Shown in pieces: positions 42,262 through 44,592 of a stretch of 64,000 bases of DNA; position 1 is the first letter of the stretch, and every line of letters starts with the position of its first letter. The stretch is taken from assembly GCA_905479105.1 (NCBI GenBank), contig CAJQLE010000001.1:124001-188000 (forward strand), in the 5' to 3' direction. The translations under genes and the position numbers were made by a program. Source of the stretch: an uncultured Flavobacteriales bacterium. Its GTDB lineage: Bacteria; Bacteroidota; Bacteroidia; Flavobacteriales_G; Salibacteraceae. Below the pieces are notes generated by a model. The model was not told where the DNA came from, searched no databases, and saw only the letters and a list, made by a program, of their open reading frames with translations.

Positions 42262-43554
42262 CTATAAGGACTGAGCCTCAGAGGCGCCTTGGTCTCCGCT
42301 TGGCGATTCGGAGACCGCGGACTGACTTAGAAGGTATAGCAATGCTTGTGTTTCAGCATTGCGAATGTCGAGCTGCATTTTAGAAAGTTGAGAGAGTACT
42401 CCACTCAATGGAATATGACGGAAATGATACGTCTCCCAGTCTGTTTCATGTCCACTCATTTCATAAGTTTTACTAAAATCAAATGGTAAAATAGCCGCCA
42501 TTTCACTGCGAATCTCAGGCTTATAAACTTGCAATATTTCTGTTTGAAAAGATTCCAATGAAGTGATGAGGGCATTTGCGCTAAACTCTCCTTCTCCACC
42601 AAATAAAATATGTGTTGGAATGTCGAAATTGTCTTGTCCGTTCAGCAAGTACACTTTTGCATTCTTTGCATCTTCTCTAGAAATTCCCTCCGTTTCAGAG
42701 ATTAGTTCTAATCGAAATGACTCTAAAGTTGTGGAGGATTTATTGACTGTAGCTTTCAATGCAACAGCATTCTGGTTGCCTTCCAATTTAGAATAAAGTG
42801 CTTCATTATTTGCTGCTTTGTCCACTGAATCTTCAAGATCAGCGCCCACCAACAATATTCCTCTATTGAAGTTGGTGCTTCGGTTTACGCTCATCAAACC
42901 AAACACTAGAATAAAGCATGTCATTGCGACCAAACCAGTGGATAGCGTAATGGACTTATTTGCGGATGATTTGTACTTCTTAAAGTAAAAAAGAGGAACA
43001 TAAAGTGCAGCGAGAATTGCCATTCCAGACAGCAAGGTAACTGCCGCACCGGGCCAGTGCATAATCTTAAACAAGACCCCAATTGTGGTCAGCGTTAAAC
43101 CCACAAAACCTGAGATGTGCATCATCGATTCATCACGCGGAGATTCCTTCAGTTTGTGCCAAAGCAACATGGGTAAGTACACGAGCGCAAGCAAACCCGC
43201 ACCCAATATGATTAAGACACCAGCGCCATACCAGTGCATCAGTTTAAAAATCGTCCCCGCCAAGAGAAGAAAAGTCGAAGTCAGTCCGAAAGAAAATGCT
43301 ACTTTTTTCATGTTTTCATTCATTTCGGTTAATAATTCAAAAGTTTGTTGTTGGACCTGCTTTAAGCCCCCAGGTCCGAAGAGCTTTATTGTTTGTTCAA
43401 AGGCAGCTTCAAAAGATTTGCCCTCGTCCATTTGATTTTCTATTGAAGTGCATACGTGATCTAAAAGATCATCATGCAATTCATTCTGTGCTATTCCGTG
43501 CTGCTTGATGTATGCACTGATCAAAGCAACTTGTTGTTCGTTCAATTCAGACAT
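42262..43554 (-). CDS. HAAS-like head, two GldL-like membrane hairpins and GldM-like domain in one protein
   Basis: A 430-residue protein I cannot match to a named family as a whole. Residues 1-75 resemble the HAAS domain of PadR-linked proteins (ELHDDLLDHVCTSIENQM, FEAAFEQTIKLFG). Two membrane hairpins follow (about 84-132 and 145-192), each with the GldL-like motif: IFKLMHWYGAG and LFKIMHWPGAA. A fifth helix (about 201-223) leads to a periplasmic part like the GldM D1 domain: LMSVNRSTNFNRG resembles the end of the GldM helix, and residues 376-408 contain YHFRHIPL then LSKMQLDIRNAET, like the GldM segment YHFKGFP...LSAWQNDVKKTET. The second helix of each hairpin lacks the glutamate needed by GldL. 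It overlaps padR by eight bases. A sensor or structural role, not a proton motor, is my inference. Confidence 0.78.
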   Translation of the reverse strand: MSELNEQQVALISAYIKQHGIAQNELHDDLLDHVCTSIENQMDEGKSFEAAFEQTIKLFGPGGLKQVQQQTFELLTEMNENMKKVAFSFGLTSTFLLLAGTIFKLMHWYGAGVLIILGAGLLALVYLPMLLWHKLKESPRDESMMHISGFVGLTLTTIGVLFKIMHWPGAAVTLLSGMAILAALYVPLFYFKKYKSSANKSITLSTGLVAMTCFILVFGLMSVNRSTNFNRGILLVGADLEDSVDKAANNEALYSKLEGNQNAVALKATVNKSSTTLESFRLELISETEGISREDAKNAKVYLLNGQDNFDIPTHILFGGEGEFSANALITSLESFQTEILQVYKPEIRSEMAAILPFDFSKTYEMSGHETDWETYHFRHIPLSGVLSQLSKMQLDIRNAETQALLYLLSQSAVSESPSGDQGASEAQSL

Positions 43555-43897
43555 TGTAGCTAGGTTTTAGTGAGAAGTTATTCAACAGACGATTCATCGT
43601 TTGAGAGAACTCGTGAAATTCTGCTGCTAATGATGTCGCTTGATCGTTTCCAGTCTCTGTTAATCTATAGTATTTCCGTACTCGCTTTCCGATGTTTTCT
43701 TTCTCGGTTTCGAGCAGGCCTTCCGCTTCCAATCGATGCAATAGTGGATACAAAGCGCCTTCGGTTAATTGAATTTTTCCATCGGTTTCTTCCTTCACGT
43801 GTTGCGTGATTTCATAACCATACATCCGGCCTTTTTTAGCTAACAAGCTCAAAACAATTGTTTTAAGCGTTCCTTTAATGAGTTCGTTTGAATACAT
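43547..43897 (-). CDS. PadR-family transcriptional regulator
   Basis: A 116-residue winged-helix regulator. LIKGTLKTIVLSLLAKKGRMYGYEITQHV is the typical PadR N terminus, and LTEGALYPLLHRLEAEGLL is the recognition helix region. The wing is KRVRKYYRLTETG. The open frame reaches 43957, but ATG 43897 is chosen because a consensus promoter covers the upstream part. It is a member of the short, single-domain PadR-s2 type that often controls the adjacent membrane gene. Palindromes inside and above its promoter suggest autoregulation. Confidence 0.92.
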   Translation of the reverse strand: MYSNELIKGTLKTIVLSLLAKKGRMYGYEITQHVKEETDGKIQLTEGALYPLLHRLEAEGLLETEKENIGKRVRKYYRLTETGNDQATSLAAEFHEFSQTMNRLLNNFSLKPSYNV

Positions 43898-43901
43898 AAG
43901 G

Positions 43902-43960
43902 CAAATATACATTAGATTCTTATGCATCCAAACATTATACCTAATTTTCTTATGCATAAG
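43902..43960 (-). promoter_or_regulatory. padR operon promoter with two ATGCATAAG operator-like repeats
   Basis: The minus strand has TTTG (43932 to 43929), a 19-base spacer and TATATTTG (43909 to 43902), a near-ideal promoter; the ATG follows after four bases. ATGCATAAG occurs at 43957-43949, inside the perfect palindrome CTTATGCATAAG (43949-43960), and again at 43927-43919, inside the spacer. The repeats are exactly 30 bases apart, about three helical turns, so a dimer pair could bind on one face. The operator role is inferred. Confidence 0.7.
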
Positions 43961-44017: not shown

Positions 44018-44046
44018 TTGAAGGATTATGCCAAGCGCTATATTTG
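44018..44046 (+). promoter_or_regulatory. Promoter of the lipoprotein at 44065
   Basis: TTG (44018-44020), an 18-base spacer and TATATTTG (44039-44046), matching the Bacteroidota consensus. It overlaps the upstream possible starts at 44044 and 44047, so the gene must start at ATG 44065. Confidence 0.7.
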
Positions 44047-44064
44047 ATGTCTAAAGCATATTGT

Positions 44065-44592
44065 ATGAAGTATTTCACAAAGGCCTTTTTCCTATTACTT
44101 ATCACTTCTTCCGCACTTACCTCATGTGTTAAGTATCAAATTAACAATCGGTGCTGTGAAGATGAATACGAGATCATCAATACAAATTATGTGTTGCCTG
44201 ATTCCTTTGCGTTGTATATTCCACAAGCTTTCACTCCTAATGGAGATGGCGTGAATGATATTTTTCTGCCTGTTGGAAACAGGTTTGAAGTTGAAGACTT
44301 AGTCATAAAGAAAGGACGTAAAACTGTATATAAATCTTCTGAGCGCATTGAAGCCTATTGGGACGGTGGTGACGAAAAAGACGGGCGCTATTCTTATGAA
44401 TTGACAATTCGCCTTTCAAATAATGATAAGTTGGACATTGAAGGCAACGTTTGCTTGATGACCATTGGCGCAATTGGTAGCAACCTGCACGATACGGAAA
44501 GAGAAAAAATATGCGAATGTGTGATGGGCGATATGATCAACGCTAGAGACGGTGTTGTAAAAGCGACCGTTGAATGTCCGTCAAATCAATAA
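44065..44592 (+). CDS. Small lipoprotein with an isolated T9SS type B/gliding-like segment
   Basis: A 175-residue predicted lipoprotein with lipobox LTSC and Cys21. Residues 51-65 read YIPQAFTPNGDGVND, the hallmark opening of the gliding-motility-associated (T9SS type B) C-terminal domain, followed by a domain of about 100 residues. In large proteins this domain is the export signal at the C terminus; here it is nearly the whole protein and follows a lipoprotein signal. The C-terminal 60 residues add cysteines (KICECVMGD, ECPSNQ). No other domain is seen. Confidence 0.78.
   Translation: MKYFTKAFFLLLITSSALTSCVKYQINNRCCEDEYEIINTNYVLPDSFALYIPQAFTPNGDGVNDIFLPVGNRFEVEDLVIKKGRKTVYKSSERIEAYWDGGDEKDGRYSYELTIRLSNNDKLDIEGNVCLMTIGAIGSNLHDTEREKICECVMGDMINARDGVVKATVECPSNQ

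Follow-up and report, generated by a model that had tools for sequence, protein, structure and literature searches.

A 15-bp ladder of half-sites reaching from the promoter of a padR gene into its start codon, a candidate autoregulatory operator in Bacteroidota

The padR promoter situated in the window, that is, the whole 64,000-nucleotide stretch of DNA from an uncultured Flavobacteriales bacterium (Salibacteraceae) that was analysed, carries five half-sites on the minus strand at an exact 15-bp step, repeated four times. The conserved unit of this ladder is a 21-bp palindrome, ATACATAAG-N3-CTTATGTAT, recovered from the upstream regions of 91 padR relatives. The ladder is probably an autoregulatory operator, with padR repressed by its own product through the copy of the palindrome located on the -7 box (operator 2).

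Architecture of the padR promoter

Read toward padR, the five hexamers are ATGCAT-N9-AGGTAT-N9-ATGCAT-N9-ATGTAT-N9-ATGTAT, and the complete minus-strand string is CTT ATGCAT AAGAAAATT AGGTAT AATGTTTGG ATGCAT AAGAATCTA ATGTAT ATTTGCCTT ATGTAT TC. They are of the type ATRYAT with 9-bp gaps, the second one (AGGTAT) deviating from it. The two copies of ATGCATAAG form elements 1 and 3, element 4 reaches into the -7 box, and padR begins within element 5, whose ATG TAT supplies its first two codons (Table 1). Five hexamers of the form A[TG][GA][CT][AC]T at exact 15-bp steps were found at one place per strand of the 64-kb window, which corresponds to a single locus because the motif is nearly self-complementary. 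When the window was searched with the 21-bp consensus in permissive letters, the only sites scoring at least 15/18 were those at 43892, 43907, 43937, and 43952, all of them on the ladder, while three further sites, off the ladder, were obtained at 14/18. Operator 2, composed of half-sites 3 and 4, has two mismatches to the consensus and is the best site of its own genome, and its right half extends into the -7 box. The promoter follows the sigmaA pattern of Bacteroidota, with TTTG at about -33 and TAnnTTTG at -7.

Table 1. Features of the padR locus in the window (positions in the window; sequences read on the strand given)
Feature	Coordinates	Strand	Remarks
Partner gene, 430 aa	42262..43554	-	8-bp overlap with padR
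padR, 116 aa (MYSNELIKGTLK...), stop included	43547..43897	-	Predicted leaderless; Pfam PF03551
Half-site 5, CTTATGTAT	43892..43900	-	Holds the padR ATG (43897-43895) and the Tyr2 codon TAT
-7 box, TATATTTG	43902..43909	-	First three bases shared with half-site 4
Operator 2 (half-sites 3 and 4), ATGCATAAG-AAT-CTAATGTAT	43907..43927	-	21-bp inverted repeat in the promoter spacer
-33 box, TTTG	43929..43932	-	19 bp before the -7 box
Operator 1, 21-bp inverted repeat ATGCATAAG-AAA-ATTAGGTAT	43937..43957	-	Upstream of the -33 box; 3 mismatches to the consensus
Half-site 2, ATTAGGTAT, right half of operator 1	43937..43945	-	Hexamer 43937-43942
Half-site 1, ATGCATAAG, left half of operator 1	43949..43957	-	Hexamer 43952-43957

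A sequence-only reading of this DNA had described a TTTG-N19-TATATTTG promoter with two copies of ATGCATAAG 30 bp apart, one within the spacer (43927-43919) and one upstream, the latter contained in a 12-bp palindrome, CTTATGCATAAG (43949-43960). The promoter, the two copies, the palindrome, and the presence of repressor-type sites inside the promoter upstream of padR were all recovered here. The palindrome was not upheld as the unit of recognition, ATGCATAAG being the left half of the 21-bp inverted repeat. When searched as a unit with up to two mismatches, the 12-mer gave 2 matches in the window against 3.72 expected, and in the 2.79-Mb genome the exact 12-mer occurred once; with up to one mismatch, it gave 8 places, compared to 9 obtained with the reversed pattern as a control. 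The self-complementarity of ATGCAT is incidental, as 53 of 72 rows have A and 11 have G as the third base of this hexamer. The proposal that both sites lie on the same face of the DNA holds only approximately: with 10.5 bp per turn, 30 bp correspond to 2.86 turns and fall about 50 degrees short of a full one. The 30-bp step resolved into two 15-bp steps, and a fifth element, on the start codon, had been missed.

The product of padR matched PF03551 at 2e-22 (79.4 bits, above the cut-off of 27), and solved PadR relatives matched from 5.7e-13. The nearest named relative was found in a Flavobacteriales metagenome-assembled genome (locus L037), with a PadR 96% identical.

Conservation, register and the start codon among padR relatives

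The upstream regions were taken from family genomes and from a one-genome-per-species collection. The latter holds at least 558 relatives, of which the best 80 were used, so that distant padR genes are under-sampled. From 116 loci, 108 tblastn rows were obtained at E<=1e-6, of which 91 non-redundant relatives were kept after removing 6 duplicates, 2 rows short of upstream DNA (L055 and L089), 8 distant paralogues, and L022, whose tblastn match does not begin at the N-terminus. This last locus (G009:C1:717041-717360) is a padR orthologue split over two frames, with an operator-like site upstream.

The footprinting of orthologous padR genes, proposed by the earlier reading as a check of its motif, did reveal the motif upstream of them. 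The best consensus score reached at least 15/18 in 73 of the 91 relatives, against 1 of 1820 dinucleotide shuffles. The palindrome axis was situated at a fixed register without any alignment, as 0.707 of the position pairs were complementary there in the 72 of 91 rows with an ATG at the aligned position, compared to at most 0.393 at the other 70 registers; shuffling the columns, with letters swapped among sequences, gave 0.605 +/- 0.011, and none of 1000 such shuffles exceeded 0.642. A -7 box was present upstream in 79 of the 91 relatives, and the main site was in register on it in 61. The 30 relatives failing this in-register test include one clade with a leader of some 20-30 nt and the Flavobacteriaceae-type rows, whose half-site is altered. 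They also include L058, L061, L072, L078, L082, L093, and L095, where the operator does not lie on the -7 box but begins a stretch further up, 27-29 bp from the ATG, and where a segment of PadR is altered (NVGNRIRKYY), as well as L043 and L096, in which no convincing operator site was found by footprinting. That the promoter-like string and the AT-rich repeats of this intergenic region arose by chance has a virtually negligible probability: the region is AT-rich and the mismatched 12-mer is unenriched, as such an origin would have it, yet the footprinting refutes it, and so do the conservation, the fixed register, and the near-exclusive link to padR.

The 15-bp step was also recovered from the relatives. 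In those rows whose -7 box could be recognised (78 of 91), right half-sites (defined by 7 of 9 letters) were located at offsets from the box of 0 (59 rows), +15 (58), -15 (19), -30 (17), -31 (7), and -45 (5), and left half-sites at hexamer offsets of -15 (55), -30 (25), -45 (13), and -46 (7), the median count over all offsets being 0; an additional left-hand signal at +19 (32 rows) stems from the coding sequence ATGTATTCATCAG. Half-site 1 of the window has its counterpart in the left half-sites at -45 or -46, half-site 2 in the right half-sites at -30 or -31, and half-site 5 in those at +15. Among the 61 rows with the main site on the box, the search for further sites yielded 23 located 28-31 bp upstream, 15 exactly 15 bp upstream, and 34 exactly 15 bp downstream. 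Because of these offsets and extra sites, the 30-bp spacing of the ATGCATAAG copies is read as two 15-bp steps. The distance between operators 1 and 2 is not rigid (28-31 bp among relatives), and operator 1 is missing in many of them.

Regarding the start of transcription, exactly 4 nt separate the end of the -7 box from the ATG in 56 of the 91 relatives; the distance is 10-33 nt in 23, and no box could be recognised in the other 12. Among 55 relatives with the 4-nt distance, TTTG was found at a spacer of 17-21 in 24, against 2.1 expected. The sigmaA box is reported to span -12 to -5 in Flavobacterium psychrophilum (PMC9723704); because of this and of the 4-nt distance, +1 would fall on the A of the padR ATG, and the padR mRNA is predicted from its sequence to be leaderless. 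The 19 rows lacking an ATG at the aligned start carry a leader. On the PadR tree the leader label needs 2 changes and the 4-nt label 10, as estimated by a quick method with few columns and many open forks.

Within the ladder, the second codon is expected to serve as operator and as coding sequence at once. Tyr2 was encoded by TAT in 50/50 relatives with the box 4 nt from the ATG, compared to 10/14 leadered relatives (p = 0.0016); this comparison uses the 50 strictly leaderless rows, 7 of the 57 Tyr2 rows not being strictly so (all 57: p = 0.00027), and the Fisher p-values are optimistic as the relatives are not independent. Other Tyr codons were TAT in 339/517. When considering all 72 ATG-started rows, Tyr2 was TAT in 57/57 and His2 was CAT in 10/10.

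A rival account, possible although we consider it rather unlikely, is that operator 2 is the only functional site, and that operator 1 and half-site 5 are by-products, the +15 element stemming from the conserved N-terminus (MYSSEL), from a preference of leaderless starts, or from AT-rich codon use. It would fit the absence of operator 1 from many relatives, the overlap of element 5 with coding sequence under protein constraint, and the use of TAT for Tyr2 in four leadered, ATG-started relatives (L059, L060, L075, and L086), where the codon lies outside the ladder. Against it stands the difference in Tyr2 codons between the leaderless relatives, the leadered ones, and other positions, together with the lack of any extra T bias in the two-fold pyrimidine codons 3-13 (17 T/9 C, compared to 772/443 in the rest). 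The leadered relatives also speak against it: a right half-site was located at +15 in 9 of 23, where there is no start codon, compared to at most 1 at off-ladder offsets, and with a strict weight matrix for element 5, a harder test than this 7-of-9 match count, the best mean was obtained at the expected register, with 5 of 23 rows exceeding the threshold there; of 15 other offsets, one yielded a single row and 14 yielded none. Some leadered relatives read CTTAGGTA at +15, and the same G/T variation occurs in operator 1. It is likely, though less so than autorepression through operator 2, that operator 1 and half-site 5 add further dimers.

An improbable alternative concerns the start itself: the ATG located 4 nt from the box may be unused, or transcription may begin further upstream and include a leader. 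Leaderless mRNAs are a minority in the phylum, amounting to 5.5% in F. psychrophilum (PMC9723704), with 5'UTRs under 10 nt reported for 3.7% in B. thetaiotaomicron (PMC7366714), and the window bears an in-frame upstream ATG, with an ORF start at 43957. This upstream ATG would, however, put the promoter inside the gene, the similarity to relatives begins at MYS, and the 4-nt distance recurs in the 56 relatives mentioned above as well as in 32 of 46 loci found by pattern alone.

Two observations concern starts of this kind elsewhere. An identical TATATTTGCCTTATG begins an unrelated 240-aa reading frame in the same genome (L137:1543-1557; G000:C4:712042-712056), and such starts are therefore not unique to padR in its own genome. 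Additionally, TANNTTTGNNNNATG occurred 68 times in the genome, compared to 35 for a control pattern.

Specificity for padR and proposed regulation

The genome scan suggested by the earlier reading as a way to other targets disclosed no further convincing one. In the own genome (2.79 Mb), the consensus with up to three mismatches gave three sites, namely operator 2, operator 1, and one elsewhere, situated within a long open frame, compared to one match of the reversed control pattern; padR was the only place bearing a pair of sites. In 35 family genomes, at up to two mismatches, 16 of 20 places were located at padR orthologues, the other 4 equalling the 4 control matches, and sites were found in 15 of the 18 genomes possessing a padR orthologue. 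A wider regulon, tried as a candidate, was not found at up to three mismatches in the own genome, nor at up to two mismatches in the family genomes; weaker targets may lie below these thresholds.

A class scan was carried out with the pattern ATRCATAAGN3CTTATGTATNTTTG (up to two mismatches, 395 genomes, no protein in the query). It matched 46 genomes in 49 rows, two of which are opposite-strand readings of a palindromic site, giving 47 distinct sites, compared to 3 matches of the control pattern. All but one of the distinct sites (46/47), among them that of the window, lie upstream of a padR whose product is 52-100% identical to the query; at the remaining site, L172, no padR follows. The ATG follows the box by 3-45 nt at these loci. 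In the phylum scan (up to one mismatch, 296 genomes), five genomes were matched, compared to 0 for the control: one of them is the window, and in the other four the site precedes a padR with 50-56% identity to the query, differing from it at the N-terminus. No match was obtained at these thresholds in 349 of the 395 class genomes and 291 of the 296 phylum genomes, genomes with and without padR being pooled in these numbers. As the padR footprint supplied the pattern and several genomes belong to both sets, the scans bear on exclusiveness and spread rather than on discovery.

These scans, in turn, bear on whether another DNA-binding protein, e.g., a global regulator, reads the ladder, padR being merely its target. 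We see only a slight chance of this. The operator is indeed unlike the published PadR motif ATGT-N8-ACAT (reported in PMC4517056 and PMC5428041), as a different reader would explain. A global regulator would nevertheless be expected at many targets, and the sites are nearly confined to padR in both the class and the family scan. In addition, the operator and PadR change together in one clade, the Flavobacteriaceae-type group (8 rows), which mostly shows ATACATTT...AAATGTAT, both arms being altered symmetrically. Twelve PadR positions differ between this group and the main group, and only three of them (43, 45, and 52) are located in or next to the recognition helix, EGTLYPxLxRLE being described as helix 3 of PadR (PMC3506622). 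This joint change represents a single event and is only suggestive of PadR reading the site. From the location of the ladder and from this clade, we infer that PadR itself is the binding protein.

In the regulation that we propose, a PadR dimer would bind the palindrome ATRCATAAG-N3-CTTATGTAT at operator 2 and, because operator 2 takes up the spacer between the -33 and -7 boxes and extends into the latter, would exclude RNA polymerase. Further dimers would occupy operator 1 upstream and half-site 5, 15 bp beyond, so that PadR would jointly cover about -60 to +6, possibly in a cooperative manner. Transcription would begin at the A of the padR ATG, giving a leaderless mRNA in which the start codon and the Tyr2 codon double as an operator half-site, and the circuit would act essentially on its own operon. 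The HAAS-like cytoplasmic domain of the partner protein would probably bind PadR and, upon a putative envelope signal, release or strengthen repression.

The partner gene and known systems

The protein encoded by the partner gene combines an N-terminal helical domain, similar to HAAS or permease-prefix-1 domains, with GldL-like membrane hairpins bearing an HWPGA motif and a GldM_1st-like region, all in one protein; in Pfam it matched both GldL_N and GldM_1st. A next reading frame was found at 89 of 91 loci, 82 of them having a DH-type N-terminal motif under a loose pattern, and the HW-type motif of the GldL-like hairpins was located behind the domain in 57 of the 89 partners. When eight partners were tested against Pfam, GldL_N was found in five, two of which also had GldM_1st, while the other three showed MacB_PCD plus FtsX, peptidase M23, and nothing, respectively. 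The partner of the window may be a sensor assembled from T9SS motor parts.

The N-terminal domain has a conserved DHxC core, and D32, H33, E39, and F48 were invariant in an alignment of 37 partner domains (the window and 36 of 63 listed domains). The NCBIfam model perm_prefix_1 matched 13 of the 37 members, with a best value of 2.1e-6; the window partner matched it at 1.7e-4 and 21.4 bits, below the cut-off of 30. Pfam gave scattered weak matches only, and no HAAS or DUF1700 model was among 25 of the 32 matched families. The structure model of the domain (pLDDT 82.6) consists of helices at 6-18, 24-43, 48-57, and 63-99, with an FGPGG stretch between the third and the fourth, and a Foldseek search with this model returned no solved relative at E<=0.001.

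The arrangement may correspond to the HAAS-PadR dyad (PMC11237479), in which a standalone PadR gene is coupled to a second gene, one that joins a HAAS-like helical domain to various modules, membrane-type ones included. The passages of that paper predict the pair from gene neighbourhoods and give no operator. The present group differs from the dyad in that its partners most often carry the GldL-like HW motif. The HAAS fold has three helices, the third kinked at GxP. In the model obtained here, FGPGG lies between helices 3 and 4. By analogy with this literature, there is about an even chance that the HAAS-like partner controls PadR. Because the operon itself is the only apparent target, the predicted HAAS-PadR pair is directly testable here.

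Among the studied PadR proteins, the closest parallel is LmrR, the PadR-s2 autorepressor of Lactococcus lactis, which shares with the predicted system a small winged-helix PadR dimer acting through an inverted repeat on its own promoter. In the case of lmrR, more than one dimer reportedly occupies the promoter (PMC4534193). The LmrR site is given as ATGT-N8(10)-ACAT (PMC5428041), whereas the arms are reversed here, ACAT-N9-ATGT; inspection of the window promoter showed that ATGT-N8-ACAT is absent from it, and this motif does not define the Pfam family PF03551. Unlike at LmrR, the half-sites recur at 15-bp intervals, past the -7 box and as far as the start codon. Drugs release LmrR, whereas the present padR has a gene for a membrane partner as its neighbour. 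Regarding the promoter, both boxes of the Bacteroidota sigmaA type, TTTG and TAnnTTTG, as reported in PMC7366714 and PMC9723704, are located at the expected places. The padR promoter departs from the standard one in that an operator half-site overlaps its -7 box and in that its transcript is expected to lack a leader.

None of the titles listed in searches of open-licence papers concerned this operator, and no paper joining PadR and GldL was found among the literature matches listed. The mRNA of the lambda repressor cI transcribed from PRM also begins at the AUG and is autoregulated near its start, the protein being unrelated to PadR; it is not known to have a conserved half-site over its start codon. 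The padR ladder offers a concrete, testable candidate operator for a widespread regulator, its arms oriented opposite to those of the motif published for PadR. At the predicted leaderless start, the same bases would clearly serve both regulation and coding. A more ambitious reading, which we regard as doubtful, extends to the whole class: dimers would lie side by side on the 15-bp ladder from about -60 through the -7 box to the start codon, the first two codons would themselves be DNA bound by the repressor, and the GldL-like/HAAS-like partner would read membrane energy or the state of the envelope and set occupancy accordingly. If true, this would constitute a one-operon, kinase-free alternative to a two-component system.

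The gene divergent from padR encodes a CHU_C-like protein (below the Pfam cut-off); its region at 44039-44067 (+) includes the ATG at 44065 and a separate TATATTTG box (44039-44046), which lies about 80 bp past the ladder. Because this box lies so far beyond, the divergent gene is probably not repressed by the ladder. Finally, the genome bears a second padR paralogue (L036; G000:C2:62180-62473, minus strand), 36% identical, which is preceded by a different palindrome, TACTATGTATTGCATAGTA, followed by its own TATATTTG box.
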